Below are positions 922 to 61,798 of a stretch of DNA of 64,000 nt, piece by piece. The stretch's first letter is position 1. Every line of letters begins with the position of its first letter. Made by a program: the position numbers and the translations under genes. Origin of the DNA: an uncultured Actinomycetes bacterium. Lineage in GTDB: Bacteria > Actinomycetota > Actinomycetes > Nanopelagicales > Nanopelagicaceae. The stretch lies in assembly GCA_903843225.1 (NCBI GenBank), contig CAIMOX010000038.1, forward strand, positions 1-64,000, read 5' to 3'. The notes beneath the pieces are model-generated. The model searched no databases. It was not told the origin of the DNA and saw only the letters and a program-made list of their open reading frames with translations.

Positions 922-927
922 TAGGCT
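922..927 (+). promoter_or_regulatory. -10 hexamer TAGGCT of leaderless promoter for marC-like gene
   Basis: TAGGCT ends exactly 6 bases before the ATG at 934 and no Shine-Dalgarno sequence is present, so transcription would start at the A of the start codon. Confidence 0.6.
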
Positions 928-933
928 TGAACT

Positions 934-1554
934 ATGCACAATTTAGCTTCACTCTCTGCAGTCGCATTCGGGTTGCAGGCATTCGTCACCCTCCTAGTCA
1001 TTTTGGATCCACCAGGTGCGACGCCATTCTTCTTAGCTTTAGTAGGAGATCGTCCTGCGCGGGAGAGAGTAAAACTTGCTTGGCAGGCAGCAGGGGTCTC
1101 TTTCATTGTGATCGTCGCTTTCGCACTCTTTGGAAAAGCAGTCCTCGGTTACCTCCATGTTTCAATCTTCGGGCTTCAGGGTGCCGGCGGACTTTTGCTC
1201 TTACTCATCTCACTCGAATTGCTTACTGGCAAAGATAATCCTGATGTTGATTCAAAGAAGGGTAATGTCGCACTTGTCCCACTTGGTACTCCCCTACTCG
1301 CTGGTCCTGGTGCGATCGTCACGACGATGCTTTATGCCAATTACGCTCATGGGAGTGCTCGAATCGGTTCCCTTTTTCTTGCTATCGTCGCAACCCATAT
1401 AGTTATTGGAATTTCTCTGATGTTCTCAACAAAGATTTTGGGGCTTATTAAAGAGTCCGGTGTCACTCTCTTTGCTCGTATTGCAGGCCTTCTCTTAGCT
1501 GCCATCGCAGTTGAGATGATCGTCGCCGCTATCAAGGGTTTCTTTAATCTCTAA
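934..1554 (+). CDS. MarC family integral membrane protein
   Basis: A 206-residue protein with about six hydrophobic helices. It matches the MarC/UPF0056 family in length and in the early PPGATPFF segment, which corresponds to the family's D-P-x-G-x-x-P-x-F motif (about residues 25-33). The family's transport substrate is not known; the original antibiotic-resistance link is disputed. The start is supported by the TAGGCT-N6-ATG layout. The ABC-F gene follows after 21 bases and may be co-transcribed. Confidence 0.85.
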   Translation: MHNLASLSAVAFGLQAFVTLLVILDPPGATPFFLALVGDRPARERVKLAWQAAGVSFIVIVAFALFGKAVLGYLHVSIFGLQGAGGLLLLLISLELLTGKDNPDVDSKKGNVALVPLGTPLLAGPGAIVTTMLYANYAHGSARIGSLFLAIVATHIVIGISLMFSTKILGLIKESGVTLFARIAGLLLAAIAVEMIVAAIKGFFNL

Positions 1555-1575
1555 CCTCTGTGAGAGACTGCCTTA

Positions 1576-3174
1576 GTGATTGCGACTCAGAGTGTTGAAC
1601 TACGTGCCGGAGCTCGCCTCTTAGTTAAAGACGTGACAGTTCGGATCAACCACGGTGATCGCATCGGTTTTGTCGGTCGAAATGGTGCTGGCAAATCCAC
1701 TCTTGCAAAAGTCCTCGCCGGCGAAACGATGCCTGCTGGTGGCCAAGTGCTTCGTACCGGATCAATCGGTTACCTCCCTCAAGATCCCCGGACCGGTGAT
1801 CAGGGTGAGTTAGTTCTTAACCGTATTCTCTCCGCTCGCGGCCTCGACCAAATCGCAATTCGAATGACAAAGGTTGAAGAAGAGATGGCCACCGCATCTC
1901 CTGAAGAGCTTGAAAAGGTAATGGATCGTTACTCACGAGTCAGTGCTGAGTTTGATACTGCAGGTGGTTATGCAGCCGCTGCAGAAGCAGAATCGATCGC
2001 GACCAACCTGGGGCTTCCTGAACATATCTTTACCAATACCCTCGATGGCTTATCTGGTGGCCAACGTCGTCGTATTGAATTAGCACGTCTACTCTTCAGT
2101 GGTTCCGAGACGCTCATCCTCGATGAACCTACTAACCACCTGGATGCCGACTCGATTATCTGGCTACGTGAGTACCTCACTAAATACTCTGGTGGACTTG
2201 TCATCATCTCGCACGATGTGAACCTCATCGAAACCGTCGTCAACAAGGTCTTCTACATTGATGGCAACCGAAACGTGATCGATGTCTACAACATGGGTTG
2301 GAAGAAGTATCTCCAGCAACGTGAAGATGATGAGCATCGTCGCAAGAAGGAACGCGCAAATGCGGAGAAGAAGGCTGCGATCCTCGCCAAGCAGGGTGAG
2401 AAGATGAAGGCGAAGGCCTCAAAGGCTGTCGCCGCTCAAAATATGTTGAAGCGATCCGAGCGTTTGCTCTCTGGTCTTGAAGCGGTGCGCGTGAGTGACA
2501 AGGTTGCAAAGCTGCGCTTCCCTACCCCTGCTCCTTGCGGTAAGACTCCGCTCATGGCCGAGGGACTCTCAAAGTCCTATGGTTCACTCGAAATCTTTAC
2601 CGATGTCTCACTCGCTATCGACCGATCATCGCGCGTGGTGATCTTGGGGCTCAATGGTGCCGGAAAGACAACACTTCTCAAGATTCTTGGTGGAGCGGCT
2701 GAATCTGACACTGGTGATATTCAGCCGGGTCATGGCTTAAAGATTGGTTACTACGCGCAGGAGCATGAGACTCTAGATTTCGAACGTTCTGTCCTTGCAA
2801 ATATGCTCTCATCCGGTGAAAAGATCAATGAACAACAGGCCCGGCAAGTCCTGGGTTCATTCCTCTTTGTTGGAGATGATGTTGATAAGCCCGTGAAAGT
2901 TCTAAGCGGTGGTGAACGAACCCGTCTTGCACTCGCCACTCTCGTAGTCGGTTCAGCCAACGTGCTCCTACTTGATGAACCCACAAATAACTTGGACCCG
3001 GAATCACGCGATGAGATTCTTGCCGCTCTTGGTGAATATCAGGGTGCTGTTGTGATGGTGAGCCACGATGAAGGAGCAGTTCGTGCCCTTAAGCCTGAGC
3101 GAGTCTTATTACTCCCAGATGGCGATGAAGATCTGTGGAATGACGAGTACTTCGACTTAATCGCCTTGGAATAG
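1576..3174 (+). CDS. ABC-F family ribosome-associated ATPase
   Basis: A soluble protein of 532 residues with two ABC ATPase domains and no membrane segment. The first has a Walker A GRNGAGKST (about residues 34-42) and signature LSGGQRRR. The second has GLNGAGKTT and LSGGERTR. The charged linker between them (KKERANAEKKAA region) is the P-site tRNA-interaction motif of ABC-F proteins, which act on the ribosomal E site rather than in transport. The start is GTG. Only a weak GAGACT-N6 sequence precedes it, so it may depend on the marC promoter. It could be a housekeeping EttA/Uup-like factor or an antibiotic-protection type; sequence alone does not decide. Confidence 0.9.
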   Translation: MIATQSVELRAGARLLVKDVTVRINHGDRIGFVGRNGAGKSTLAKVLAGETMPAGGQVLRTGSIGYLPQDPRTGDQGELVLNRILSARGLDQIAIRMTKVEEEMATASPEELEKVMDRYSRVSAEFDTAGGYAAAAEAESIATNLGLPEHIFTNTLDGLSGGQRRRIELARLLFSGSETLILDEPTNHLDADSIIWLREYLTKYSGGLVIISHDVNLIETVVNKVFYIDGNRNVIDVYNMGWKKYLQQREDDEHRRKKERANAEKKAAILAKQGEKMKAKASKAVAAQNMLKRSERLLSGLEAVRVSDKVAKLRFPTPAPCGKTPLMAEGLSKSYGSLEIFTDVSLAIDRSSRVVILGLNGAGKTTLLKILGGAAESDTGDIQPGHGLKIGYYAQEHETLDFERSVLANMLSSGEKINEQQARQVLGSFLFVGDDVDKPVKVLSGGERTRLALATLVVGSANVLLLDEPTNNLDPESRDEILAALGEYQGAVVMVSHDEGAVRALKPERVLLLPDGDEDLWNDEYFDLIALE

Positions 3175-3238
3175 AACGTTAACCCTTCGTTTACCACGCG
3201 TTTCACTAATGAAAAGACTCCTGTAACCATCCCCCTTC

Positions 3239-3244
3239 TAGCCT
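3239..3244 (+). promoter_or_regulatory. Candidate -10 hexamer TAGCCT for the iron ABC operon
   Basis: TAGCCT lies in the 118-base spacer, about 50 bases before the GTG at 3293. Unlike many genes here, this gene has a true leader with AGGAG at 3283-3287. A TTTCA-N4-TGAAA inverted repeat (3201-3214) lies upstream and TACGCGTA (3250-3257) lies just downstream. No recognised DtxR/IdeR or Fur box is visible. Confidence 0.35.
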
Positions 3245-3292
3245 GCTCCTACGCGTAATTGGTCGATTGCGCACCCAACATTAGGAGACATT

Positions 3293-4336
3293 GTGAAGAT
3301 TTCGCAGAAACTCTCACTTGCAGGCCTCGCAGCTCTCGCTGTACTTGCAGGATCACTTACACCAGTGGCTCACGCCGCTGATGCGCTACAGCTTTATGCA
3401 GCACTAGATTATTCAACCGATGTTGCTACAGCGTTTACCGCTAAGACTGGAATCCCGGTCAACGTGACAGCGCTTTCAACTGGTCCACTTCTTGCAAAGA
3501 TCACCGCTGAGAAGAACAACCCACAATGGGGCGTCTACTGGGCAGATGGTGCTGAGCCATGTGCAGCACTAGATATCGATAAGCAACTAGTCCACTACAA
3601 GCCAAAGGGTGCTCACCTCAATGCAATCGGTGCGCAGCTTGCTCCTAAGACAAATGCTTACCAGGTACCAGGATTCACTGAGATGGTCGGCGTTGTTTAT
3701 AACTCGTCAAAGGTTCGTAAGCCAACCTCATGGGATGACCTCGCATCAGCTGATTTCAAGAATCAAGTTGGCATGAATAACCCTTCAGTTTCCGGTCCAA
3801 CCTACCCATTTATCGCCGGCCTCATCCAGCAACTCGGTAGCGAAGATGCGATGAAGGCATACCTTCTTAAGCTCAAGGCAAATGGTCTTCGTGCATTTGA
3901 TAAGAACTCAAAGACTCTCGCTGCGCTCAATACTGGCGTCATCAATGTAGGTCTCGTTCAATCATCAGCAGCGATTACCGAAGTCAATACCTACAAGGCA
4001 AAGCCAGTTGCTGGTCTGACCCCTGCAGTTACCTACCTCTCAAAGACGACCGTTCTTCCGTCATGTCTTGCAATCGATGCTAAAGCCTCATCTTTCCAGC
4101 AAGATGCAGCGAAGAAGTTCGTTGACTTTGTCATGTCTTCTGAGGCCGTTGCCATCATGGTGAAGTCAAACACTGGAGATTCGCTCTTCTGGCCAACACT
4201 TGTAGGTCGTGCGCCATCAACAGCCACAACTACAATGCCTTCTCTCACTTCAGGATTGGTTCAGATTGTTGATCCATACAAGTACGCACTCATCCAAGGT
4301 GAAGTTCAGGACTGGTTTACAAAGAACATCGCTTAA
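3293..4336 (+). CDS. Iron(III)-type ABC transporter substrate-binding protein
   Basis: A 347-residue extracytoplasmic binding protein of the AfuA/FbpA (COG1840) type. The N-terminus is a Sec signal peptide with a hydrophobic core at about residues 8-23 and a VAHA-A cleavage site near residue 28. There is no lipobox cysteine, which is unusual for a Gram-positive binding protein. Two cysteines in the mature part (in AEPCAAL and LPSCLAI) could form a disulfide. GTG start with AGGAG 5 bases upstream. It is the first gene of a binding protein-permease-ATPase operon. Iron is inferred from the family and from the adjacent COG4280 protein; related transporters carry thiamine or phosphonates. Confidence 0.8.
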   Translation: MKISQKLSLAGLAALAVLAGSLTPVAHAADALQLYAALDYSTDVATAFTAKTGIPVNVTALSTGPLLAKITAEKNNPQWGVYWADGAEPCAALDIDKQLVHYKPKGAHLNAIGAQLAPKTNAYQVPGFTEMVGVVYNSSKVRKPTSWDDLASADFKNQVGMNNPSVSGPTYPFIAGLIQQLGSEDAMKAYLLKLKANGLRAFDKNSKTLAALNTGVINVGLVQSSAAITEVNTYKAKPVAGLTPAVTYLSKTTVLPSCLAIDAKASSFQQDAAKKFVDFVMSSEAVAIMVKSNTGDSLFWPTLVGRAPSTATTTMPSLTSGLVQIVDPYKYALIQGEVQDWFTKNIA

Positions 4337-4357
4337 GTTATTTAAGCGAAGATAGCG

Positions 4358-6112
4358 ATGTCGAAGACGAGAGGGCTCGATGGGGTACTCCCACGGGCTC
4401 TCTCTCTTTTTCGTTCTAAATTTTCCCCTATGACAGCTTTCTGGCTGATCATCATCAGTATTCTGGTTCTGCCTATTATTCTCTTCCTGGCCGTCGCTTT
4501 TAGTCCAAAACTTTTAGACCAAGGCCCGCAATGGTTCACCTTCTCTAGTTTCAAGGCAGCCGCAGATCCTTATTTTCTTCGATCTATCTGGCACTCATTT
4601 TTATTAGGCGTAATCTCAGCGGTTGCCGCTACCGCGATCGCAATTGGTGTCGCCTGGATAGTCCTGCGAACAAATGCGTCATCTCGCAAAGTTTGGAATC
4701 TCTCAATTTTTGCCCTCTTGCTCGCACCGTCATATCTCATAGCCCTGGGCTGGGAGCGCATCTTTGAGCGCGCCGGCGTTCTAAACATCATTGGGATCGA
4801 TCTTCCACATGTTCGTGATCTGCTTTATGGACCAATCGGAATTGGAATGATCCTGACATTTAAAGGAATTCCTTTCGCTTACCTCGTGATCTCAAATGCG
4901 ATGCGCGGTTTAGGTGAAGAGTTTGAACAAGCAGTAAGAGTTCATGGTGGCTCTCGCTTGCAGGCATTCAAGATGATGGCCACCCTCTTATTACCGGCTC
5001 TATGGTCAGGAATCGCAATTGTCTTTGCCGAGAGTATCAGTGACTTTGGTGTCGCTTCTCAGCTCTCATCGCCTGGTCGATATTCAGTTGCAACCTTCAC
5101 GCTCTACAAATCAGTGATGTCTATTCCTGTCTCGTTCCCGCTCTGCGCTGCAATTTCAATTATTCTTCTAGGACTAGTTGTTCTAGCGCTCCTCGCCCAA
5201 GCGAAAGCCCTTCGCGGCAGATCTTTTCGAGTGCTCAGTGGTCGAACGCGTCCTATCACTAGGCAGAAGCTCTCTCGAAGGGGTGCATTCGGCGCCAACT
5301 CAGCCATCTATGGACTCCTCTTCGTTACCTTGGGAATTCCCGTCTTTGGCGCAATATCTGCATCGATGATCCAGGGATTGGGTACAGTGATTTCAAATTA
5401 CCAATTCAATTTTGATAATTACTTCAGGGTAATCAAAAGCCCACTCCTGAGATCTCCACTCCTCTTCTCCGCTGAAGCGGCCCTCATCACCGCATCCGTT
5501 GCTGTAGTTTTAGCCGCAATCTCCTCAAAGATGCTTGTCTCAACCAAGAATGGCGTTGGAAAGAAGTTTCTTGATTTCTTCCTCTTGGCGGCAGTTGGGC
5601 TACCAGGCATCGTCTTTGCGATTGGGTATATCTTCGCCTACAACCTTCCTATTGCTCAGAAATACGGATTTCATCTCTACGGAACGGTGGCGCTCCTCGT
5701 TCTTGCATACACGGCGACCGCGTTACCCTCAACTACGCGCTCACTCGTTGGAAATATGAATCAGTTCCAAGAATCGCTTTCAGAGGCTTGCCGTGTTCAT
5801 GGTTTTACCGCGATCAAGACTTGGATCGCTGTTGTGCTCCCGCTTATATCTCGTCCGCTTCTAGCAGCTTGGTGTCTCACGTACTGTGGCACGTTACTTG
5901 AGCTTCCAGTGAGCCAGATTCTCTATCCACCTGGGCATGCGCCACTCGCTGTTGGAATCGATCACGCACTTGGAAATTATGATTTTGGTGGCGGTACCGC
6001 GATGGAGGTATTTGCGATCATCTCGGCTCTGCTTGTTGTCGCAGCAGTTTTCGCAGTGTATGAATTCTTCGCGCCTAAGGGCTGGAAACAACTAGGGAAG
6101 GCACGCGCATGA
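4358..6112 (+). CDS. Iron(III)-type ABC transporter permease, fused two-domain (FbpB-like)
   Basis: A 584-residue inner membrane permease with two binding-protein-dependent transport domains, each with an EAA-type loop: EEFEQAVRVHGGSRLQAFK (about residues 187-205) and ESLSEACRVHGFTAIKTW (about 471-488). A single chain therefore supplies both halves of the translocation pore, as in FbpB/SfuB (COG1178). It starts 21 bases after the binding-protein stop. Its stop overlaps the ATPase start by 4 bases (ATGA), indicating translational coupling. An internal ATG at 4430 is possible, but the upstream start gives the normal cytoplasmic N-terminal tail. Confidence 0.85.
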   Translation: MSKTRGLDGVLPRALSLFRSKFSPMTAFWLIIISILVLPIILFLAVAFSPKLLDQGPQWFTFSSFKAAADPYFLRSIWHSFLLGVISAVAATAIAIGVAWIVLRTNASSRKVWNLSIFALLLAPSYLIALGWERIFERAGVLNIIGIDLPHVRDLLYGPIGIGMILTFKGIPFAYLVISNAMRGLGEEFEQAVRVHGGSRLQAFKMMATLLLPALWSGIAIVFAESISDFGVASQLSSPGRYSVATFTLYKSVMSIPVSFPLCAAISIILLGLVVLALLAQAKALRGRSFRVLSGRTRPITRQKLSRRGAFGANSAIYGLLFVTLGIPVFGAISASMIQGLGTVISNYQFNFDNYFRVIKSPLLRSPLLFSAEAALITASVAVVLAAISSKMLVSTKNGVGKKFLDFFLLAAVGLPGIVFAIGYIFAYNLPIAQKYGFHLYGTVALLVLAYTATALPSTTRSLVGNMNQFQESLSEACRVHGFTAIKTWIAVVLPLISRPLLAAWCLTYCGTLLELPVSQILYPPGHAPLAVGIDHALGNYDFGGGTAMEVFAIISALLVVAAVFAVYEFFAPKGWKQLGKARA

Positions 6113-7185: not shown

Positions 7186-7193
7186 AGGCCACC

Positions 7194-9653: not shown

Positions 9654-9659
9654 AAGGTA
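9654..9659 (-). promoter_or_regulatory. -10 hexamer TACCTT of leaderless promoter for aminotransferase
   Basis: TACCTT ends 7 bases before the ATG at 9646. This favours that start over the two longer in-frame options. Confidence 0.45.
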
Positions 9660-13350: not shown

Positions 13351-13356
13351 AGTGTA
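13351..13356 (-). promoter_or_regulatory. -10 hexamer TACACT of leaderless promoter for enoyl-CoA hydratase operon
   Basis: TACACT on the minus strand ends 6 bases before the ATG at 13344; no Shine-Dalgarno sequence is seen. Confidence 0.6.
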
Positions 13357-13402: not shown

Positions 13403-13408
13403 TAGGCT
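13403..13408 (+). promoter_or_regulatory. -10 hexamer TAGGCT of leaderless promoter for LysE-type gene
   Basis: TAGGCT ends 6 bases before the ATG at 13415. The AGGAG inside the 6-base gap is only one base from the ATG, too close to act as a ribosome binding site. Confidence 0.6.
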
Positions 13409-15535: not shown

Positions 15536-15541
15536 AATTTA
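15536..15541 (-). promoter_or_regulatory. -10 hexamer TAAATT of leaderless promoter for plsC-like gene
   Basis: TAAATT ends 6 bases before the GTG at 15529. Only 22 bp separate it from the divergent candidate -10 at 15564-15569. Confidence 0.55.
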
Positions 15542-18077: not shown

Positions 18078-18083
18078 GCCCAT

Positions 18084-18089
18084 AGGTTA
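18084..18089 (-). promoter_or_regulatory. -10 hexamer TAACCT of leaderless promoter for SRPBCC-ROK operon
   Basis: TAACCT ends 6 bases before the ATG at 18077 and decides that start over the ATG at 18083. Confidence 0.55.
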
Positions 18090-18127: not shown

Positions 18128-18133
18128 TACCGT
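18128..18133 (+). promoter_or_regulatory. -10 hexamer TACCGT of leaderless promoter for fadD15-like gene
   Basis: TACCGT ends 6 bases before the ATG at 18140; no Shine-Dalgarno sequence is visible. Confidence 0.55.
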
Positions 18134-21465: not shown

Positions 21466-21471
21466 AGGTTA
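21466..21471 (-). promoter_or_regulatory. -10 hexamer TAACCT of leaderless promoter for pimB
   Basis: TAACCT ends 6 bases before the ATG at 21459, in a 49-bp divergent spacer shared with the RibD-like gene. Confidence 0.6.
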
Positions 21472-21496: not shown

Positions 21497-21502
21497 TACG
21501 GT
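21497..21502 (+). promoter_or_regulatory. -10 hexamer TACGGT of leaderless promoter for RibD-C gene
   Basis: TACGGT ends 6 bases before the ATG at 21509; there is no Shine-Dalgarno sequence. Confidence 0.55.
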
Positions 21503-22027: not shown

Positions 22028-22033
22028 TACCCT
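22028..22033 (+). promoter_or_regulatory. -10 hexamer TACCCT of leaderless promoter for DUF3000-rnd
   Basis: TACCCT ends 6 bases before the GTG at 22040. Confidence 0.5.
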
Positions 22034-23957: not shown

Positions 23958-23963
23958 TAGGCT
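23958..23963 (+). promoter_or_regulatory. -10 hexamer TAGGCT of leaderless promoter for FTR1 gene
   Basis: TAGGCT ends 6 bases before the ATG at 23970. With TTGCGT 17 bases upstream this is the most complete promoter in the window. Confidence 0.65.
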
Positions 23964-30109: not shown

Positions 30110-30115
30110 AGTCTA
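30110..30115 (-). promoter_or_regulatory. -10 hexamer TAGACT of leaderless promoter for dxs
   Basis: TAGACT ends 6 bases before the ATG at 30103. Confidence 0.6.
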
Positions 30116-32815: not shown

Positions 32816-32821
32816 ATCCTA
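32816..32821 (-). promoter_or_regulatory. -10 hexamer TAGGAT of leaderless promoter for acnA
   Basis: TAGGAT ends 6 bases before the ATG at 32809. Confidence 0.6.
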
Positions 32822-32830: not shown

Positions 32831-34078
32831 TTACTTCAGATTAAATCTGACGACAGTTTCGACGTGCTGGGTCATTGGGAAGAGGTCAAAAGCCACGATC
32901 GAATCCATCGTGTAACCGCCCTCTGTGATCCATTTCGCATCGCGCGCCAGGGATGCTGGGTTGCATGAGATGTAGACAATCGTTGTAGGGCGGAGTTTGA
33001 GCAGGCTCAGAACCACAAGCTCGCCAGCGCCAGTTCTTGGTGGATCGAGGAGCACGAGGTCAGCCTTCTCAATCTTAGGAAGGAGCTGTTCCACCATTCC
33101 GGAGTGGATCTGTACATTCGCATAACCCTTAAAAATTGAGGTCGCATCAGCAAGTGCGCGGCGATCTGATTCGATTAAGTGCACCTTGCCCTTAGCTCCG
33201 ACCGATTGTGCAAGTGCACCAGTGAAGAGTCCCACTCCCCCGTAGAGATCGCAGACGGTATCCCCAGGGCGAACATCCAGGAGCTCCATAGCGTGTTCGA
33301 CAAGCGTTGCAGGGGCGAGTTTGTGCGCCTGCCAAAATGAAGAGGGTGAAATTGTGTAGGTCATTCCCTCTACAACTTCATGGAGTTGCGTTGGACCAGA
33401 AAGGCTCCGTCCTCCGCGCGAAATATTGGTCTCGCGTGAGCTCGACGTCGCTACTTCAATGCGCGCATCACCATTAAAAGTCTTAGCTGCAAGTGCGGGG
33501 ACATCCATCTCCTCCACGGCGATCAAACAATCATCAATCTCCTGAACTTCTTTACTTCGGTGTTGGTACAGACCAATCTTTCCAAAATCTGAGATCGCAA
33601 AATCCATTCGAGTGCGCCAATGGAGCCCGTCCTCGGGTTCTACTCCGCGAACTTCACAGGTAAGGCCAAGATCAGAGAGGGAGATCTTTCCCAACCGTTC
33701 AAATTGTTCAGTGACGATCGCCGCTTTGAGTACGCGCTGGTAGGCAATATCAATATGCTGGAAGTCGCAGCCACCACATCCCCCAGGACGCGCGTATGAA
33801 CACGGCGCAACAACGCGATATGGCGATGGCTTCAGTACTTCAATGACATCTGCACGTGTCACTTTCGAGACGACAGAGGTCACTTCAACAACAACGTGCT
33901 CTCCTGGAATTGCGTGCCGGACAAAGAGGACCTGCCCCTCGTGGCGGGCGATGAAATGTCCACCATGGGCTGGAGCCAGGATTTCGACCGTTACCTGATC
34001 TCCGACTTCCAGACGCGCGGTTTGCGCGCCATGAGGCTGTGCATTCTGGGAGGGTTCGTGTTCAGGATCGGTATGCAT
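32831..34078 (-). CDS. TRAM-domain RNA (uracil-5-) methyltransferase, TrmA/RlmCD-like
   Basis: A 415-residue SAM-dependent RNA methyltransferase. A TRAM domain occupies about residues 22-85. It is followed by the iron-sulfur cysteine cluster CSYARPGGCGGCDFQH, a Rossmann SAM-binding part with VCDLYGGVGLFTG, and the nucleophilic cysteine in VYISCNPASLARD. It methylates C5 of a uridine in tRNA or 23S rRNA; which one is not determinable. It corresponds in position to the TrmA-like gene beside the Trk genes of mycobacteria. The spacer to divergent trkA is only 40 bp. Confidence 0.9.
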   Translation of the reverse strand: MHTDPEHEPSQNAQPHGAQTARLEVGDQVTVEILAPAHGGHFIARHEGQVLFVRHAIPGEHVVVEVTSVVSKVTRADVIEVLKPSPYRVVAPCSYARPGGCGGCDFQHIDIAYQRVLKAAIVTEQFERLGKISLSDLGLTCEVRGVEPEDGLHWRTRMDFAISDFGKIGLYQHRSKEVQEIDDCLIAVEEMDVPALAAKTFNGDARIEVATSSSRETNISRGGRSLSGPTQLHEVVEGMTYTISPSSFWQAHKLAPATLVEHAMELLDVRPGDTVCDLYGGVGLFTGALAQSVGAKGKVHLIESDRRALADATSIFKGYANVQIHSGMVEQLLPKIEKADLVLLDPPRTGAGELVVLSLLKLRPTTIVYISCNPASLARDAKWITEGGYTMDSIVAFDLFPMTQHVETVVRFNLK

Positions 34079-34084
34079 TAAGCA

Positions 34085-34090
34085 ACCCTA
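34085..34090 (-). promoter_or_regulatory. -10 hexamer TAGGGT of leaderless promoter for TrmA-like gene
   Basis: TAGGGT ends 6 bases before the ATG at 34078. Its position coincides with where the -35 of the divergent trkA promoter should lie. Confidence 0.6.
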
Positions 34091-34105
34091 ACCGAGTTAT
34101 GGGTG

Positions 34106-34111
34106 TAAGTT
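34106..34111 (+). promoter_or_regulatory. -10 hexamer TAAGTT of leaderless promoter for trkA pair
   Basis: TAAGTT ends 7 bases before the GTG at 34119. Confidence 0.5.
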
Positions 34112-34118
34112 TTCCTCT

Positions 34119-34781
34119 GTGCATGTAGTCATTATGGGTTGTGGGCGCGTGGGCTCTGGTTTAGCTCTCGAACTCGAAGCAAAGGGCCATACGGTCGCCG
34201 TTATCGATCACAATCGTGAGTCATTCCGTAGATTGGGACCGAACTTCAACGGTCAGACTGTTGCTGGGGTCGGCTTCGATCGAGATACCCTTATTGAAGC
34301 TGGTATTGAAAAGGCAGGCGCCTTTGCTGCTGTTTCTAACGGTGATAACTCAAATATTCTCGCTGCCCGAGTTGCGCGTGAAACTTATAGCGTTGAACAT
34401 GTCGTCGCTCGAATCTACGATGCCGATCGCGCCGAGATTTACCAGCGATTGGGTATTCCTACTGTTGCCACAGTTCTCTGGACAACGGATCAGATTCTTC
34501 GCCGCCTCGTACCTGAAGGCTCTCGTTCTGAGTGGCGCGATGCGAGCGGACTCATCAAACTCTGCGAAGTTACCATTGAAGCTTCTTGGTACGGACACCC
34601 GGCGCTCTGGATTGAGGAGCACACCCCCGCTCGCCTCGCCTTCATCACCCGCCTTGGCGAAGGTCTCATCCCTGATCAACACACCGTCCTTCAAGAGGGT
34701 GATCTCGTGCATGTCATGGTCGCCGAGAAAGATATCGCCGAAGTAGATGTGATTCTCGCAAAACCGCTTGAGAGGAACTAA
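34119..34781 (+). CDS. TrkA/Ktr potassium uptake NAD-binding protein (first copy)
   Basis: A 220-residue cytosolic regulatory subunit of a K+ uptake system. It has an N-terminal RCK Rossmann domain with VIMGCGRVGSGLALELEAKGH (split: GCGRVGSG at about residues 7-14) and acidic DHN at the end of strand 2, followed by a TrkA-C domain (about 140-220). The second copy starts within its stop codon, as in the ceoB/ceoC pair of mycobacteria. No membrane TrkH/KtrB gene is in the window. GTG start, leaderless with 7-base spacing. Confidence 0.9.
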   Translation: MHVVIMGCGRVGSGLALELEAKGHTVAVIDHNRESFRRLGPNFNGQTVAGVGFDRDTLIEAGIEKAGAFAAVSNGDNSNILAARVARETYSVEHVVARIYDADRAEIYQRLGIPTVATVLWTTDQILRRLVPEGSRSEWRDASGLIKLCEVTIEASWYGHPALWIEEHTPARLAFITRLGEGLIPDQHTVLQEGDLVHVMVAEKDIAEVDVILAKPLERN

Positions 34782-36513: not shown

Positions 36514-37094
36514 GGATTGATCTCAAAGTCTGGGTCAACAAAGGCGAGCAACTCTGGATGAGCGGTGACATGATCAAGATATGCCTTCGGTGCGTTATCG
36601 AGGAAATGTTTCATTGGAACGATAATAAAGAGCGCAGATGACTTCACTGCAATCGGTCCATCGAGAGAACCGAGGTGACCTTCTGCCGCTACATACACTT
36701 TGCGATTTACCTGCCCCGAAATCCACGCACGAATATGCAACTGAGTTCCGATTGGTACTGGTAGAAGAAAGTCCGTCTCAAGGCGGGCCGTTACCGCTGG
36801 TGCACGTATCAACCACATCAATTTTCCAAGGGCTTCATCAAAGGCGAGTGAGAGCAGTCCACCGTGCGCTAAGCCCGGCGCACCTTGATGATTCTCGGTG
36901 ACAGTGAATACTGCTGTGAGATCCTGTCCTTCGCCAACATGGGCGATGAGATGTAAACCAGTCGGGTGCAACTCTCCGCAACCAAAGCAGTGGCCAAAGT
37001 GCGAAGGGATCTGCGTTCCCGAAGGCGGGGCCTTGGGATGGCGTTCAGGGATCTTGGCCTCTGCTGGCGGGATCGTGCTCGGAACTCTGCTCAC
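36510..37094 (-). CDS. PaaI-family hotdog-fold thioesterase
   Basis: A 194-residue acyl-CoA thioesterase-like protein. An N-terminal proline-rich tail precedes HFGHCFGCGELHPTGL (a C-x2-C pair), then the hotdog signature GAPGLAHGGLLSLAFDEALG (about residues 73-92) with the catalytic acidic residue in FDEA. The substrate is unknown. It is the first gene of an operon with dut and DUF3159. GTG start with leaderless TACTCT-N6, in a 44-bp spacer shared with divergent DUF3093. Confidence 0.8.
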   Translation of the reverse strand: MSRVPSTIPPAEAKIPERHPKAPPSGTQIPSHFGHCFGCGELHPTGLHLIAHVGEGQDLTAVFTVTENHQGAPGLAHGGLLSLAFDEALGKLMWLIRAPAVTARLETDFLLPVPIGTQLHIRAWISGQVNRKVYVAAEGHLGSLDGPIAVKSSALFIIVPMKHFLDNAPKAYLDHVTAHPELLAFVDPDFEINP

Positions 37095-37100
37095 CAGGTA

Positions 37101-37106
37101 AGAGTA
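37101..37106 (-). promoter_or_regulatory. -10 hexamer TACTCT of leaderless promoter for thioesterase-dut operon
   Basis: TACTCT ends 6 bases before the GTG at 37094. Confidence 0.55.
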
Positions 37107-37126
37107 ACTTGTGAACGAATCAAGGG

Positions 37127-37132
37127 TAAGTT
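37127..37132 (+). promoter_or_regulatory. -10 hexamer TAAGTT of leaderless promoter for DUF3093 gene
   Basis: TAAGTT ends 6 bases before the GTG at 37139. Only 20 bp separate it from the divergent -10 at 37101-37106. Confidence 0.55.
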
Positions 37133-37138
37133 CGGCTC

Positions 37139-37576
37139 GTGGAAGAGATGAGATTTAGATCGCGCGACCCTTGGCCAATCTGGCTCTGGCTCTTCTTGAT
37201 CTTCCTTACCGGTTCTCTCTCAGTGGCAATCGATGCAGCGCTCGGATCTCGCTGGGGCTGGATCAGTTTGATCGCCCAGCTCGCGCTTTTAGTGTGGAGC
37301 GCCATAACAACCCCACTTGAGATTTCAGTGGATCAGAAGATCCTCACCGTTGGTAACGCCTCAATTGAGCGAGGATTCATCGCTTCTGCAACAGCGCTGA
37401 CATCGACTCAGATGGCGCTGCTTCGCGGGCGAGATGCCAATCCTCAGTGCTGGATGGCGCTGCGATTTTGGGTCTCAACAGGAGTAAGAATTGATATTAA
37501 CGATTCAGCCGACCCAACGCCCTATTGGCTAGTGAGTGCAAAAAAGGCGACTGCGTTAGCAGTCGCCCTTTCGTAA
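37139..37576 (+). CDS. DUF3093 family membrane protein
   Basis: A 145-residue protein of the actinobacterial DUF3093 family. Two hydrophobic helices (about residues 12-30 and 35-55) are followed by a cytoplasmic or external domain ending in DPTPYWLVSAKKATALAVAL. The function is unknown. Its last nine codons are also the inverted repeat of a terminator that serves the convergent DUF4193 gene, so the C-terminal sequence is constrained by both roles. GTG start, leaderless. Confidence 0.8.
   Translation: MEEMRFRSRDPWPIWLWLFLIFLTGSLSVAIDAALGSRWGWISLIAQLALLVWSAITTPLEISVDQKILTVGNASIERGFIASATALTSTQMALLRGRDANPQCWMALRFWVSTGVRIDINDSADPTPYWLVSAKKATALAVALS
37541..37567 (-). terminator. Intrinsic terminator for DUF4193 gene, inside DUF3093 coding end
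   Basis: GGCGACTGC and GCAGTCGCC (37546-37554 and 37559-37567) form a 9-bp GC-rich stem with a 4-base loop. On the minus strand it is followed by a run of six T (37540-37545 region), the standard intrinsic terminator layout. On the plus strand only CTTTCG follows, so it is weaker there. Confidence 0.75.
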
Positions 37577-38154: not shown

Positions 38155-39123
38155 TTAGCGTGAAAGTCGGATGCTCTCTTTACCCCGCGCGGCTAGACGT
38201 TCAAAGTGAACCTCACGCTTATCGTTGAAGATCTCCACGTCGCGAGCCGCCTGCTTCAAAAATAGTGCAAGTTCTTCGCGAGCTGCAGCGCCATCACCAG
38301 TGAGAGTTGTGAGCTCAAAGACACCCCAGGCTCTAAGAACAGGCATGACAACATCCTCGAGGTGCAGTTGCAGATCATAAATACCGGCGAGAGCAATCTG
38401 AACCGACTTGCGACCCCAACCAGGCATTCCTACACCAGGCATCGCGAAGTTGAGAAGTACGTCAGTAATCGCGCGCATTGCAAGATTTGGCTCCAACTTA
38501 ATCGCCTCTGCTAAGAGATTGCGATAGAAGAGCATATGAAGATTCTCATCTAGTGCGACGCGAGCCAGCATTCCTTCGCAAATCTCATCATCGGAGATAC
38601 GGCCAGTATTACGGTGTGAGATGCGCGTTGCGAGCTCCTGGAAGGTCACATAAGCAACGGTGTGCAACATATCGTTGGGGAATGGAGTTTGATATCCAAC
38701 TTCCATGTGAGCCATGCGCAGATCTTCGAGCTCTGTTGGGTCAACACCGCGAGTCGCCATCAGATAATCACGTAACACAATGCTGTGGCGGGCTTCTTCT
38801 GCCGTCCATCGATTGATCCAGGTATTCCATGCTCCATCGCGTGACATCGAGTTCGCAATCTCGGTGTGGTACGAGGGAAGATTATCTTCAGTCATCAAAT
38901 TTAAGACAAGAGAATCCTGCGCTACAGCAGTGAGGCGTGAATCTTTCGCCTCCCATGCATCGCCATTGAGTGGCCCAGCAAAAGTTCGTCCCTCTGACCA
39001 GGGAACATACTCATGGGGATACCAATTCTTCGTAGTCTTAATGTGGCGTTCGAGTTCGACCGCAACGGCAGGCTCTAGGTCGCGGATGAGGCGAGCTTGG
39101 ACTGCGGGATCTAGCTCTTGCAC
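38155..39123 (-). CDS. Acyl-[acyl-carrier-protein] desaturase
   Basis: A 322-residue soluble diiron desaturase that introduces a double bond into acyl-ACP. The two diiron-ligand motifs are present: EEARHSIVLRDY (E-x2-H, about residues 109-120) and DENLHMLFYR (E-x2-H, about 192-201). It resembles mycobacterial DesA-type proteins. It starts at GTG with AAGGAG 6 bases upstream (39130-39135) and a candidate -10 TAGATT at 39151-39156, so it has a short leader. It stands alone downstream of trmD, where rplS is usually found in related genomes. Confidence 0.9.
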   Translation of the reverse strand: MQELDPAVQARLIRDLEPAVAVELERHIKTTKNWYPHEYVPWSEGRTFAGPLNGDAWEAKDSRLTAVAQDSLVLNLMTEDNLPSYHTEIANSMSRDGAWNTWINRWTAEEARHSIVLRDYLMATRGVDPTELEDLRMAHMEVGYQTPFPNDMLHTVAYVTFQELATRISHRNTGRISDDEICEGMLARVALDENLHMLFYRNLLAEAIKLEPNLAMRAITDVLLNFAMPGVGMPGWGRKSVQIALAGIYDLQLHLEDVVMPVLRAWGVFELTTLTGDGAAAREELALFLKQAARDVEIFNDKREVHFERLAARGKESIRLSR

Positions 39124-39195
39124 GAATGACTCCTTTATGCGAATCTCAATAATCTACGAGGTAACGCTACCCTGATTGGTGTAGTTGCGCAGGCG

Positions 39196-40459: not shown

Positions 40460-40699
40460 TTAACGGGCCTCGTCTGCCTCGATGAGATCGACGCGAACTG
40501 AACGACCAGCGATTGCACTCATCACAGTACGAAGAGCGCGGGCGGTGCGACCATTACGGCCGATAACCTTACCGATATCTTCTGGATGAACGCGAACTTC
40601 AAGAGTTGTACCGCGACGATGATCTTTCTCGGTAATAACGACTTCCTCAGGATTATCGACGATCCCTTTTACGAGATGCTCGAGAGCTTCGTCAATCAT
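40460..40699 (-). CDS. khpA: KH-domain RNA-binding protein KhpA
   Basis: A 79-residue protein consisting of one KH domain with the IGRNGRTARALR G-x-x-G loop (about residues 48-59). KhpA-type proteins bind RNA, often with KhpB, and affect cell division and small-RNA biology in Gram-positive bacteria. It overlaps the rpsP stop by one base and precedes rimM, the usual arrangement. Confidence 0.9.
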   Translation of the reverse strand: MIDEALEHLVKGIVDNPEEVVITEKDHRRGTTLEVRVHPEDIGKVIGRNGRTARALRTVMSAIAGRSVRVDLIEADEAR

Positions 40700-41202
40700 T
40701 ATTCGGCAGGTATCTCTTCGGTGGTCGCAACATCAGCAGGAACCTCTGCCTCACTTGCAACTTCTTGGGTTTCGACAGGAGCCTCTACTGGCGCTGACTT
40801 TGCAGCCAACTTATCTGCAGCCTTCTTCTTTGCAGTGGTGGCGCCATCAGCTGGTTCAGCCATAGCTTCCTTGACTGCAGCTTCGTAGGCAATGCGCTTG
40901 TGTGGCTTTGGTTCTGCAATGCGGAGTGTTCCCTCTTGTCCAGGAAGACCCTTGTGCTTCTGCCAATCGCCAGTGATCTTTAAGATCGCCTCTACGGCCT
41001 CAGTTGGTTGTGCACCAACTCCGAGCCAATACTGCGCACGAGCTGTATCTACCTGGATGAATGAAGGTTCCTGGCCTGGTGTGTAACGGCCGATCTCTTC
41101 GATCGCACGTGAGTTACGAGCTGAACGAGCATCTGCAACAACAATTCGGTAATGCGGGGTGCGAATCTTTCCGAGACGCATCAACTTAATTTTTACAGCC
41201 AC
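40699..41202 (-). CDS. rpsP: 30S ribosomal protein S16 with long acidic tail
   Basis: A 167-residue S16. The conserved core is the first about 85 residues ([35 protein letters not shown] in segments such as [14 protein letters not shown]). The remaining about 80 residues are alanine, glutamate and proline rich ([17 protein letters not shown]), longer than the core-only S16 of Proteobacteria but common in Actinobacteria. It is the first gene of the rpsP-khpA-rimM-trmD operon. GTG start with GGAG about 10 bases upstream. Confidence 0.95.
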
Positions 41203-42850: not shown

Positions 42851-42856
42851 AGCCTA
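42851..42856 (-). promoter_or_regulatory. -10 hexamer TAGGCT of leaderless promoter for ffh
   Basis: TAGGCT ends 6 bases before the GTG at 42844; no Shine-Dalgarno sequence is present at working distance. Confidence 0.6.
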
Positions 42857-45145: not shown

Positions 45146-45151
45146 AGCCTA
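45146..45151 (-). promoter_or_regulatory. -10 hexamer TAGGCT, leaderless promoter for glnD
   Basis: TAGGCT ends 7 bases before the ATG at 45138, inside the glnB-glnD spacer. It would allow glnD expression independent of amtB-glnB. Confidence 0.5.
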
Positions 45152-51358: not shown

Positions 51359-51364
51359 AACCTA
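51359..51364 (-). promoter_or_regulatory. -10 hexamer TAGGTT of leaderless promoter for smc
   Basis: TAGGTT ends 6 bases before the GTG at 51352. Confidence 0.55.
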
Positions 51365-57025: not shown

Positions 57026-57031
57026 TTCACC

Positions 57032-57217: not shown

Positions 57218-57268
57218 CTCTCCCTGATCACTCACGACGTGATCCACCAGTTCACAGTTCAGATGTAA

Positions 57269-57970
57269 ATGAAGATCTATGCCCACCGCGGCGCCTCACA
57301 TGATTTCCCTGAGATGTCTCGCGCTGCCTATCTGGGCGCAGTCGAACAAGGTGCAGATGGTTTTGAATGTGACCTTCGCCTAACTAAAGATCACATCCTT
57401 ATTTGTTGGCACGATGATGACTTAATGCGGATAGCTGGATCTCCGCTCGTGGTGGCTCAATCTAGCCTGGTCGAGTTAAGAGAAGTTACTGAGATTCTTA
57501 CCTTTAAAGAACTTCTTGAGATCGCAATTACCCATAAGAAGAGTCTGGCGTTGGAAACAAAACACCCAGTTCCGACTCGTGGGGCAGTTGAAGTAGAACT
57601 ACTGGAGATCCTCTCAGCCCATCAAAATCAGATTTTAGAGGCGAAGATTGATATCGCCATCATGTCTTTTTCTTGGCGTGCAATCCGGCGTATCCGCCAG
57701 AGTGGCTATCTGAGTATTTATCTCATCGCTCACCGATGGCAGAGATTTATCGAACGCAGCGCCGGCTTTGGGCCGGGGATATTCTTACTGCGCGCTGACC
57801 CAACCCTTGGAAAAAAACTGAAAGTTAAGGATCGTGCGCTCTACATCTGGACTGTAAATATCACAGAGGACCTTCGTCTTGCCTATGAAGCACAGGCAGA
57901 TGTCGTGATGAGTGACCGCCCATCTGAGATGAAGGTAGCTCTGAAAGAGATGATTAGTCGAAGTGGTTAA
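57269..57970 (+). CDS. Glycerophosphodiester phosphodiesterase
   Basis: A 233-residue TIM-barrel enzyme that hydrolyses glycerophosphodiesters to glycerol 3-phosphate and an alcohol. The catalytic segment YAHRGASHDFPE (about residues 4-15), ADGFECDLRLTKD (metal-binding E-x-D) and WHDDDLMR (second histidine) are all present. There is no signal peptide, so it is cytoplasmic. It follows rpmB by 51 bases with neither a Shine-Dalgarno sequence nor a leaderless box that I can see. Its end overlaps convergent thiL by 17 bases. Confidence 0.9.
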   Translation: MKIYAHRGASHDFPEMSRAAYLGAVEQGADGFECDLRLTKDHILICWHDDDLMRIAGSPLVVAQSSLVELREVTEILTFKELLEIAITHKKSLALETKHPVPTRGAVEVELLEILSAHQNQILEAKIDIAIMSFSWRAIRRIRQSGYLSIYLIAHRWQRFIERSAGFGPGIFLLRADPTLGKKLKVKDRALYIWTVNITEDLRLAYEAQADVVMSDRPSEMKVALKEMISRSG

Positions 57971-58877
57971 AACCTTCATGGGTCGCGATGAAGCCATCAA
58001 CAAGAACTCTAGAGCCTTCTAAAACACTTCCAATTCTTAGGAAACCTGTGGGTAGTTTTGAGCCGCCTGCCACCGTCGCTACAAAAATATGATCCTCTCC
58101 CCCATGAAGCACCCACTCCCAAATGTCGCCACCGTTCTCAACTGCGATCTGTTCCAGCTGATCAAAACCAGGCGCCAGGGCGAGTAGCTCTCGTTCAATA
58201 GCAATCTGGACCTGTGAGGCGCTAGCAATATGTGTTAACTCCGAGATTAATCCATCTGAAACATCACACATCGAATGTGCAATCGCCGAGATCGCTTGTG
58301 CCTTCTCATACTCAACTGTGGGATTTCGATGCTCAGAACTCTTCTCATCCAGTGTCCCGCGGAGCAACATATGTAAACCACCGGCAGATTCGCCAGGGAG
58401 TTTTGAGATTACGACATCATCTCCTACCTTCGCGCCACTTCGAAGTATTGGATCTCCGACAGAACCAAAAACACTAATAGAGAGAACAATCTGGTCTGCA
58501 TGGGTAAGGTCTCCACCAACGACATGTGCTCCAACAGATGTGGCTTCATCAAAGATTCCGAGTGCGAGCTCTTCAATCTCTTCCACGGTGAACTCCCTCG
58601 GCAGGGCCGCCGCTACAAGTAGGTACTCAGGACGACCACCGATTGCAAAGATATCTGCAAGATTGGCTGAGGTGATCTTTGCGCCAATTTCATAGAGTGA
58701 GGACCAACGTCGATCAAAGTGAACTCCCTCAACTGCCATATCTGAAGCAAGCGCTATTGGGGTGAGGTGCGCTTTCACGACTGCAGCATCGTCACCAATC
58801 CCAACAATAAGTGACTCCGGCTCACCCCTCATAAATATTCTCGAAAGTGCGGCGATTAGCTCTGACTCAGTTGCCAT
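57954..58877 (-). CDS. thiL: Thiamine-monophosphate kinase
   Basis: A 307-residue enzyme that phosphorylates thiamine monophosphate to the cofactor thiamine diphosphate, which is needed by Dxs among others. It has the GIGDDAAVV ATP/metal motif (about residues 26-34), ASDMAVEGVHF, VVGGDLTHADQIVLSISVFG and CDVSDGLISEL. GAGAGG precedes the ATG by 3-4 bases, so it has a leader. It is last in the minus-strand series after ddl, at a 40-base distance. Confidence 0.95.
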   Translation of the reverse strand: MATESELIAALSRIFMRGEPESLIVGIGDDAAVVKAHLTPIALASDMAVEGVHFDRRWSSLYEIGAKITSANLADIFAIGGRPEYLLVAAALPREFTVEEIEELALGIFDEATSVGAHVVGGDLTHADQIVLSISVFGSVGDPILRSGAKVGDDVVISKLPGESAGGLHMLLRGTLDEKSSEHRNPTVEYEKAQAISAIAHSMCDVSDGLISELTHIASASQVQIAIERELLALAPGFDQLEQIAVENGGDIWEWVLHGGEDHIFVATVAGGSKLPTGFLRIGSVLEGSRVLVDGFIATHEGFNHFD

Positions 58878-58917
58878 AATCCTCTCCCCGCTTGAGATTG
58901 CGCACTTACAGAAACTA

Positions 58918-59937
58918 TTATCGAGTGACGTGGTTGCTTCTTGCTAGAGCGGTATCAATGAGGGCAGTGATCAACTCTGTATAACTTTTACCGGCGCTTG
59001 ACCAGAGCTTTGGGAAAACTGAAGTAGAGGTGAAGCCAGGCATCGTATTAATTTCATTGATAACCAAATCACCAGTGCCCGTATAGAAAAAGTCAACGCG
59101 CGCCAGTCCTTCGCACCCAAGGGATGTGAAAGCTCGAATTGCTGCTGCACGAATTTCATCACTTGGCAGATCGGTAGGAAGTTCAATGTGAGTTGACCCG
59201 TCGAGATATTTCGCTTCAAAGTCATAGAACTCAAAACGAGGATCGATCACAATCTCACCCAGAGGTGATGCTTGAATCGAGCCATCACCTTCTAGAACTG
59301 CACATTCGATTTCCCGTCCAGCGATCGCTTCTTCGATCATCACCTTTGTATCAAAGGTAAGTGCTTCATCAATGGCGCAAGCGAGGTGATCGGCACTTTT
59401 TACCTTTGTGGTTCCACGACTTGAGCCACCGCGGGCAGGTTTTACAAAGAGCGGATAATTTAAAGTCCCGGTTTCGATTACGCCATGCCAATCACGCTGG
59501 TGGAGCACAATTCCTGGCGCTACTTTTAACCCGTTGGCTTCAAAGATTGGTTTTGCAAAAGATTTGTCCATAGCAACGGCACTTGCCAGGACGCCAGAAC
59601 CTACATATCGAATACCGGCTACTTCAAGCAGTCCCTGGACTGTGCCATCTTCGCCATAAGGCCCGTGCAAGATAGGGAAGACAACATCAGGCTGGAGTTG
59701 ATCAATCGCCTCAGAAATTGTGCGAGGTGAACCGCCTTTAATCTCTGGAAGCAATCCATCGGCAATCTCAAGTACCTGATCGGAAGCCGGAATGACCCAC
59801 TGCCCGCTCTTGGTTATACCAACGAGAACTGGCGTAAAGCGGGTGCGATCAATCGCTTTCATGATGGCTCCTGCAGAGATGCAAGAAATTTCATGCTCGC
59901 TGCTCGCTCCACCGCAGAGGATCATTACTGTCTTCAT
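58918..59937 (-). CDS. ddl: D-alanine--D-alanine ligase
   Basis: A 339-residue ATP-grasp enzyme that makes D-Ala-D-Ala for peptidoglycan. It has ILCGGASSEHEISCISA at the start, HGPYGEDGTVQGLLE (about residues 94-108), FVKPARGGSSRGTTKV, and the metal-binding EINTMPGFTSTSVFP. It overlaps gpsA by 4 bases. Peptidoglycan and phospholipid synthesis are thus combined in the plsC-gpsA-ddl operon. Confidence 0.95.
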   Translation of the reverse strand: MKTVMILCGGASSEHEISCISAGAIMKAIDRTRFTPVLVGITKSGQWVIPASDQVLEIADGLLPEIKGGSPRTISEAIDQLQPDVVFPILHGPYGEDGTVQGLLEVAGIRYVGSGVLASAVAMDKSFAKPIFEANGLKVAPGIVLHQRDWHGVIETGTLNYPLFVKPARGGSSRGTTKVKSADHLACAIDEALTFDTKVMIEEAIAGREIECAVLEGDGSIQASPLGEIVIDPRFEFYDFEAKYLDGSTHIELPTDLPSDEIRAAAIRAFTSLGCEGLARVDFFYTGTGDLVINEINTMPGFTSTSVFPKLWSSAGKSYTELITALIDTALARSNHVTR

Positions 59938-60941
59938 GTCAGCTCTGCTCTCAAACTCACACTCATCAGATGCTCCATCGCTGCGGTCGGATTCATGACG
60001 CCGGAGACGACATCCGAGACAACTTCAATGATCGGAACCTCAACTCCTACGCGATGAGCAAGTTCTCGAATCGCTCGAGCCGATGCTACTCCTTCAACGG
60101 TCTTAGGCATGATGGCACGCGCCTCTTGCATTGAGCCGGTGCGCCCAAGCGCTTCCCCAAAAGTTCTATTTCGAGAGAGAGGCGACCCGCAACTTGCCAC
60201 CAAATCACCCATTCCAGCCAGTCCGAGATTGGTGAGGGGGTTGGCGCCGTAACCAATTCCAAATCTGGCGACTTCACCAAGTCCACGAGTAATAATCATC
60301 GATTGGGTATTTTCGCCATAGCCCAATCCGATCGACATACCCACAGCGAGTGCAATGACTGATTTTGTCGCTCCTGCTAATTCGCACCCCACGAGATCGT
60401 GTGATGGATAAACACGAAAATATGGATTTGTTAAAAGTTCAATCATTTGATCAACAACAAGGGGGCTGGTGGATGCTGCAACAGCGCCAGCGGGCTGGCG
60501 CAAGATTAATTCTCCCGCAAGGTTTGGGCCAGTTATTAAACCTAAATTCTCTCGCGGAAATTGCAACTCTTCCTCAATGATCTCCGTCATCCTTTTAAAG
60601 GAATCGGCTTCAATGCCTTTTAAGGTGCTAATAATTTTCTTTTCGTGCGTGAGGTAATCTCGCCATAACTCAATATTTTCTCGAAGCGTCTGTGCAGGCA
60701 CAGCAAGAAGTATCAAATCTGAGTAACCCATCGCTTCTTCTATATCTGTCGTTGCGCGGATTCGGGAGTCAAGCTCTACTTCTCCTAAAAATTTACTATT
60801 TGTGTGGGAAGTATTGATCTCGTTAACGACTTCCCTATTGCGTCCCCACATCAAGGGATCATTTCCAGCGTCAACAATGATCTGTGCGAGTGTTGTACCC
60901 CAAGCTCCGGTACCCAAAACTGTGCATTTCACAGTTGTCAC
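59934..60941 (-). CDS. gpsA: Glycerol-3-phosphate dehydrogenase [NAD(P)+]
   Basis: A 335-residue enzyme that reduces dihydroxyacetone phosphate to sn-glycerol 3-phosphate, the backbone of phospholipids. It has VLGTGAWGTTLAQIIVDAG (NAD-binding, about residues 8-26), STLKGIEAD, GPNLAGELI, the catalytic lysine region AGATKSVIALAVG, and NPLTNLGLAGMGDLVASC. It overlaps both plsC upstream and ddl downstream by 4 bases. Confidence 0.95.
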   Translation of the reverse strand: MTTVKCTVLGTGAWGTTLAQIIVDAGNDPLMWGRNREVVNEINTSHTNSKFLGEVELDSRIRATTDIEEAMGYSDLILLAVPAQTLRENIELWRDYLTHEKKIISTLKGIEADSFKRMTEIIEEELQFPRENLGLITGPNLAGELILRQPAGAVAASTSPLVVDQMIELLTNPYFRVYPSHDLVGCELAGATKSVIALAVGMSIGLGYGENTQSMIITRGLGEVARFGIGYGANPLTNLGLAGMGDLVASCGSPLSRNRTFGEALGRTGSMQEARAIMPKTVEGVASARAIRELAHRVGVEVPIIEVVSDVVSGVMNPTAAMEHLMSVSLRAELT

Positions 60942-61786
60942 TCTCTCTTTCTGTCGTTGCGTGCTGACTGCCCTGCCGCTCGCTTAAAGTTACCAATTCG
61001 GGGTAGATCTGAAAGGTGGGGATCAAAGATCTGGGTTGGCGCCTGCTCTCCTCTGATCTTCTCCAACCCTGTTGTAATCGCCGCCATAACGTAATCGGTA
61101 GCTTCTGTAAGAGCGACAGGATCGTCCTCGCACCCCTCCCATTGCGTGAAATGCAATGGGGCGCCTGCCCACACACTCACCTTGGTCCGTGGGAAGAGTT
61201 TAAGGCGTTTGCCATATGTAGGAAGAATCTCCTGTGCCCCCCACTGAGCACACGGAATCACCGGGACTTGAGTCATGATCGCAAGGCGAGCTATGCCAGT
61301 CTTAGCTTTCATAGGCCAGGTATCTGCATCTCGGGTGAGCGTGCCCTCCGGATAGACGCCAAGACAATGGCCCGCCTCAAGAAATGCCACGGCATGGCGC
61401 AAGGCGAAAGAGGCATCTGCTGTTTCGCGCTCAACGGGAACCTGGCCTGAGCCCGCGATAATTTTTCCGATGAACGGAACTTTAAATACTGAGGCTTTAC
61501 CTAAAAATCGCGGTGCTCGACCATTGGCATATAAGAAGTGAGCGAAGATCAACGGATCAATAAGCGAGATGTGATTCGAGACGACAATCACTGGGCCGCT
61601 CTTCGGTAAGTTTTCGATCCCGCGCCAATCGCGCTTCGTTATCAAACGCAGTAGAGGAATGATCACCCCTGCGCCGAACTTAAAGTATCCATTTGTCCCC
61701 AGAGGTTTACCAACTGGTGGCAGATATGAGATCTCAAATTTCGTCTGCCCATCGCTGGTTGCATCACCAGGAGTTGCCGGATTCAT
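60938..61786 (-). CDS. plsC: 1-acyl-sn-glycerol-3-phosphate acyltransferase
   Basis: A 282-residue membrane-bound acyltransferase producing phosphatidic acid. It has the NHISLIDPL catalytic block (HX4D, about residues 73-81), the FKVPFIGKIIAGSGQVPVER segment, and YPEGTLTRD (about 148-156). It leads the plsC-gpsA-ddl operon, so the glycerol 3-phosphate supply is co-expressed. The C-terminus is basic (KRAAGQSARNDRKRE). Leaderless start from TAGGAT-N6-ATG. Confidence 0.9.
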   Translation of the reverse strand: MNPATPGDATSDGQTKFEISYLPPVGKPLGTNGYFKFGAGVIIPLLRLITKRDWRGIENLPKSGPVIVVSNHISLIDPLIFAHFLYANGRAPRFLGKASVFKVPFIGKIIAGSGQVPVERETADASFALRHAVAFLEAGHCLGVYPEGTLTRDADTWPMKAKTGIARLAIMTQVPVIPCAQWGAQEILPTYGKRLKLFPRTKVSVWAGAPLHFTQWEGCEDDPVALTEATDYVMAAITTGLEKIRGEQAPTQIFDPHLSDLPRIGNFKRAAGQSARNDRKRE

Positions 61787-61792
61787 GAGCAG

Positions 61793-61798
61793 ATCCTA
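61793..61798 (-). promoter_or_regulatory. -10 hexamer TAGGAT of leaderless promoter for plsC-gpsA-ddl
   Basis: TAGGAT ends 6 bases before the ATG at 61786. Confidence 0.6.

Follow-up and report, generated by a model that had tools for sequence, protein, structure and literature searches.

The layout described here is of a kind already known in the Actinobacteria. In the survey of Zheng et al. (2011; PMC3160421), TANNNT-led genes occurred in nearly all Actinobacteria and made up a mean of 19.2% and a maximum of 29.8% of genes, with the first T of the element about 12 bases before the start codon and with Shine–Dalgarno (SD)-led and leaderless genes side by side, as in the genome studied here. 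That survey predates these genomes; in the one studied here we estimate the leaderless-type share at 25% (19–31) of all genes and about 50–66% of divergent unit heads. Mycobacterium tuberculosis and M. smegmatis (PMC3898074; PMC4633059) likewise combine a TANNNT −10 element, no conserved −35, a pyrimidine at −1, ATG or GTG starts and leadered ribosomal protein genes, and 22–26% of transcripts there are leaderless by experiment, whereas the share predicted here among divergent heads is about double. In mycobacteria the leaderless state is largely conserved between species (approximately 73%; PMC3898074; PMC4633059), and a 5′ ATG or GTG is necessary and sufficient for leaderless translation, while TTG fails; in M. 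smegmatis messages with such ends have been shown to be translated efficiently (PMC4633059). The leaderless genes of Corynebacterium glutamicum also all start with AUG or GUG and have a TAnnnT −10 with a weak −35, although at 33% of mRNAs by RNA-seq they form a lower share than is predicted here (PMC3890552). In Deinococcus deserti, of another phylum, leaderless genes are the majority layout as here, reaching up to about 60% of genes according to a statement in a review (PMC9031893), so that majority use is high for Actinobacteria yet has precedent. A sequence-only reading of our locus had noted that leaderless mRNAs are known to be common in Actinobacteria, which the published survey bears out (PMC3160421). 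What is new is the lineage and the extent: approximately 50% of divergent heads are leaderless-type in this genus and a sister genus, the corresponding estimate for other actinobacteria being approximately 19%, and this small genome uses the layout about two times as often as its larger relatives do. Our literature search found no paper that brings together leaderless and Nanopelagicales, and none that does so for Planktophila and transcription start sites. The acI bacteria (Nanopelagicales) rank with the most abundant in fresh water. Gene finders that rely on SD sequences may place their starts wrongly, and the knowledge that roughly half of their unit heads are leaderless-type would lead to corrected start sites and promoter maps.

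The window analysed is a 64 kb stretch of a 1.35 Mb actinobacterial genome (54 contigs, 99.9% complete). The closest relatives of its ffh gene come from freshwater actinobacteria that are uncultured, and the identity to Ca. Planktophila lacus is approximately 70%, which places it in the Nanopelagicales. Twenty-one starts had been listed as having TANNNT at a fixed distance, and on direct reading all 21 are correct, 18 of them at 6 bases and three (9646, 34119, and 45138) at 7. On the forward strand, boxes 6 bases before the start codon are TAGGCT (922–927; ATG 934, MarC family), TAGGCT (13403–13408; ATG 13415, amino-acid efflux protein of LysE/RhtB type), TACCGT (18128–18133; ATG 18140, acyl-CoA synthetase), TACGGT (21497–21502; ATG 21509, RibD C-terminal domain), TACCCT (22028–22033; GTG 22040, DUF3000), TAGGCT (23958–23963; ATG 23970, FTR1 iron permease), and TAAGTT (37127–37132; GTG 37139, DUF3093), and TAAGTT at 34106–34111 lies 7 bases before GTG 34119 (TrkA-N). 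On the reverse strand, those at 6 bases are TACACT (13351–13356; ATG 13344, enoyl-CoA hydratase), TAAATT (15536–15541; GTG 15529, acyltransferase), TAACCT (18084–18089; ATG 18077, polyketide cyclase-like), TAACCT (21466–21471; ATG 21459, glycosyltransferase), TAGACT (30110–30115; ATG 30103, dxs), TAGGAT (32816–32821; ATG 32809, acnA), TAGGGT (34085–34090; ATG 34078, TRAM/tRNA U5-methyltransferase-like), TACTCT (37101–37106; GTG 37094, thioesterase-like), TAGGCT (42851–42856; GTG 42844, ffh), TAGGTT (51359–51364; GTG 51352, smc), and TAGGAT (61793–61798; ATG 61786, acylglycerol-phosphate acyltransferase-like), and those at 7 bases are TACCTT (9654–9659; ATG 9646, class-III aminotransferase) and TAGGCT (45146–45151; ATG 45138, glnD). 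One further start, absent from the earlier list, is the ATG at 4430 of gene 4358/4430, 7 bases after TAAATT (4417–4422, forward strand). Altogether approximately 22 of the 41 leading genes in the window (54%) are leaderless-type against about 1.7 expected by chance, a count with a binomial probability of about 3e-20 at the measured background of approximately 2% per position, the figure being approximate given that candidate starts were chosen among, though the background had equal freedom.

Some local arrangements may be noted. One of the listed genes has two ATGs, at 18083 and 18077; only the second, 18077, lies 6 bases from the box, and ATG 18083 directly adjoins it. The spacers 34078–34119 and 37094–37139 each hold a pair of divergent leaderless-type promoters within 40–44 bp; two polymerases probably cannot bind at once at either, and the gene pairs may therefore compete for transcription. 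Between 51400 and 64000 leaderless-type starts are nearly lacking, with only 61786 among about a dozen leading genes, a scarcity that may reflect chance or functional clustering.

The count by spacing was then extended to 384 kb of this genome (the window and 320 kb more, approximately 28% of the genome). Genes were called by a dicodon model blind to promoters and SD sequences, any candidate start whose score fell within a fixed margin was admitted, and start choice was equally free at every distance; the gene callers used at first had missed dxs and short genes and were dropped. For the strict TANNNT motif at distances of 0 to 12 bases, the 219 leading genes gave counts of 4, 9, 3, 4, 3, 3, 53, 20, 8, 4, 4, 1, and 5 over a background of 4.45, so the mode is at exactly 6 bases (53/219 against 4.5 expected). 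Divergent genes have no stop codon upstream from which the TA could come, and among these 27 of 82 have the motif at 6 bases against 1.8 expected. Operon-internal genes showed an excess of 0.00 (−0.10 to 0.09; n = 118) at the fixed PWM threshold, the box being confined to the heads of transcription units, and no spacing peak was found in E. coli K-12 under identical treatment. The histogram over all ATG and GTG triplets that the earlier reading had proposed gave only a weak ATG bump at 6 bases (z = 1.9–2.2) and none for GTG; it is nearly flat because only a few percent of these triplets are real starts. A three-class EM mixture (leaderless, SD, null), started from a TANNNT seed and flat spacing, recovered TAnnnT unaided at 6, 7, and 8 bases, with fitted shares of about 20% and 9% for the last two. 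Decoy upstream sequences gave similar class shares in this mixture, and its mixing proportions, being prior-driven, were discarded in favor of excess-over-background estimates.

The boxes are also retained in orthologs, which were taken from the ffh-region loci of up to 64 Nanopelagicales and are counted as orthologs rather than as independent events. A box at 6–8 bases was kept in 25/25 orthologs of the thioesterase-like gene, 9/9 of the TrkA-N gene, 8/9 of acnA, 27/32 of glnD, 18/22 of the DUF3093 gene, 34/42 of smc, and 44/64 of ffh, while the sequence further upstream is mostly diverged. This comparison is our strongest evidence for selection on box and spacing together. Several genes of the window are leadered: SD sequences lead the genes for ribosomal protein S16 (40699–41202, reverse strand; AAGGAG, with a leader), the HU-type DNA-binding protein (61884–62336, reverse strand; AAGGGGAG), P-II, and a fatty acid desaturase. 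S16 and P-II served as controls: among S16 orthologs, 0/58 have a −10 at 6–8 bases and 45 have an SD-like 5-mer, and for P-II the box occurs in 0/59 and an SD in 50.

The start region itself has the expected features. An SD 4-mer precedes 10–12% of leaderless-type starts against 17–18% in the control, hence without excess, as had been claimed; the companion claim, that operon-internal and leadered genes have one, held for only about half, since 43–49% of the non-leaderless genes carry an SD 4-mer against 10–12% in the control stretch. At the SD-less starts 32809 and 61786 an AGGA lies inside the −10 box itself, and at 37139 an AAGG stands just ahead of it. Leaderless-type start codons comprise 58 ATG and 22 GTG, with TTG in 0/80 (p = 0.026 against other starts), and relatives have a few TTG among theirs. 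The base at −1 is a pyrimidine in 83% of leaderless-type starts against approximately 46% elsewhere (p ~ 7e-9). Transcription that starts on a purine usually has a pyrimidine just before it, and C is the commonest −1 base at the transcription start sites of M. tuberculosis (PMC3898074). Taken together, the −1 pyrimidine and the lack of TTG and of SD sequences are what is expected if transcription begins on the start codon. The −10 logo is TAnnnT, a G is favored two bases ahead of the box, and any −35 signal is weak at most, a description close to that given for M. tuberculosis promoters (PMC3898074): in this genome, 21% of the promoters match 4/6 of TTGACA at proper spacing against 15% in shuffled sequence, in line with the remark that few have a recognisable −35, and in 33 Nanopelagicales loci the figures are 28% and 17%. 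A TANNNT −10 with a weak or absent −35 is what a housekeeping sigma-A promoter should present. This assembly yielded no 16S rRNA gene; in three genomes of the sister genus the 16S anti-SD is intact, so both modes of initiation can coexist, consistent with a mixed system.

We consider it very probable, from these sequence patterns, that the boxes are ordinary sigma-A type promoters giving leaderless mRNAs, and that Nanopelagicales have this layout genome-wide, at about half of their unit heads. The prediction of leaderless transcription agrees with the sequence at each point where it could be confronted with it: the 6–7 base spacing, the restriction to unit heads, the lack of SD, the use of ATG and GTG only, the −1 pyrimidine, the order-wide conservation, and the lack of a strong −35. 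RNA polymerase containing the principal sigma factor would take the first base of the start codon, A or G, as its initiation nucleotide, and the ribosome, by analogy with Mycobacterium, would bind the 5′-terminal AUG or GUG directly, with no SD pairing, while SD sequences would serve the operon-internal genes and some leadered ones; the leaderless layout would have been inherited from actinobacterial stock. The rigid spacing, singled out earlier as the striking element, is indeed present but is no separate oddity, because the 6–7 base gap is dictated by the geometry of RNA polymerase when the transcript starts on the start codon.

A related possibility is that the promoters are real but followed by a very short leader of 1–5 bases, which would make the mRNAs near-leaderless rather than strictly so. 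The motif by itself does not distinguish a leader of 0 bases from one of 1–3, RNA polymerase can shift its start by one or two bases, and the fitted shares at 7 and 8 bases, together with 20 ffh orthologs at 9, are in keeping with such leaders; however, a mode as sharp as that at 6 bases, together with the −1 pyrimidine and the lack of TTG, points to transcription starting on the RTG itself, and we regard the short leader as unlikely, though to be taken seriously. Far less credible is that TANNNT at −12 is not a promoter but a translation signal, an AU-rich element by which the ribosome binds leadered mRNAs; non-SD, AT-rich ribosome-binding sites are known in other phyla (PMC9581028), but a signal of that kind would be expected in operon-internal genes too, where the box is missing, and the sequence is promoter-like and alternates with SD. 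That the pattern arose by chance or annotation, from starts picked for a nearby TANNNT by a reader choosing among several start codons, or from the TA of upstream stop codons, has a negligible probability and we count it as refuted by the 384-kb spacing counts, for although a G+C content of 51% makes TANNNT common and the all-triplet histogram has hardly any peak, the 6-base peak is still there when coding potential alone decides the starts and each distance has equal freedom, as well as in divergent genes and in orthologs, and E. coli treated identically has none.

With the boxes read as promoters of leaderless mRNAs, their share can be compared among genomes. In this genome the excess over background, which for all genes gives the 25% cited above, reaches 50% (36–63) of divergent genes at a fixed PWM threshold and 66% (51–80) at the threshold chosen for maximum excess, which carries a null bias of approximately 8%; the value near 50% is a lower bound for divergent leading genes. 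Calling the leaderless layout the default for leading genes was thus a slight overstatement, since it accounts for about half of the heads (50–66% of divergent ones, 54% in the window) and about half of the leading genes in the window show no such box. With the strict motif, the share is 49% of 170 divergent genes when this genome, its genus, and the sister genus g18 are pooled, 26% of 132 in two other family members, and 19% of 400 in other actinobacteria (eight genomes and nine Microbacteriaceae loci), the difference between 49% and 19% having a Fisher p of approximately 3e-13, uncorrected for phylogeny and differing G+C. The same method gave 29% (17–40) of divergent genes for a genome from an MspA-bearing family, probably Mycobacteriaceae, which is close to the 22–26% measured in M. 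tuberculosis (PMC3898074) and suggests that the method is roughly calibrated. An apparent absence of leaderless genes in a 2.2 Mb relative (G138) was gone once 300 kb of sequence was used. By length of the divergent spacer, the share in Nanopelagicales is approximately 77% at 30–60 bp, 54% at 60–100 bp, and 24% above 100 bp, against 34%, 36%, and 14–24% in other actinobacteria. Part of this trend is trivial because a leader needs room, but it is mainly in short spacers that the two groups differ, as would fit a layout driven by genome compaction. A broader proposal, that leaderless is the majority mode for unit heads in streamlined Nanopelagicales, concentrated in divergent spacers of 30–60 bp, and that compaction drives conversion from leadered to leaderless, with apparent switches in both directions (smc and the desaturase), remains tentative, and we put its chances somewhat short of even.

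Orthologs with switched leaderless and leadered states make the evolution of both initiation modes traceable. The 20 ffh orthologs mentioned above (L012–L014, L017, L021, L022, L024, L031, L036, L038, L040, L044, L046–L049, L052, L053, L056, and L061) have a gap of exactly 9 bases between −10 and ATG, longer by one codon than the usual 6, which suggests either that the leader is 3 bases long or that a start codon further upstream has been lost. In one clade (L029, L039, L041, L042, L054, L055, L057, and L058) smc has kept its promoter, GATAGGTTTGCGCC, and its start codon lies 10–25 bases further downstream, preceded by a purine-rich, SD-like sequence, an apparent switch from leaderless to leadered; in some members the old 5′ ATG is left out of frame and might open a leaderless upstream ORF. 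Most orthologs of the fatty acid desaturase gene (38155–39123, reverse strand; upstream region 39124–39180) are leaderless-type (L005, L007, L015, L018, L020, L066, and others) and share a conserved near-palindrome, GTAACTCGCNAGTAACC with the core ACTCGCGAGT, about 25–45 bases before the start, possibly an operator. The window gene has lost the palindrome as well as the leaderless box and uses the SD AAGGAG instead.
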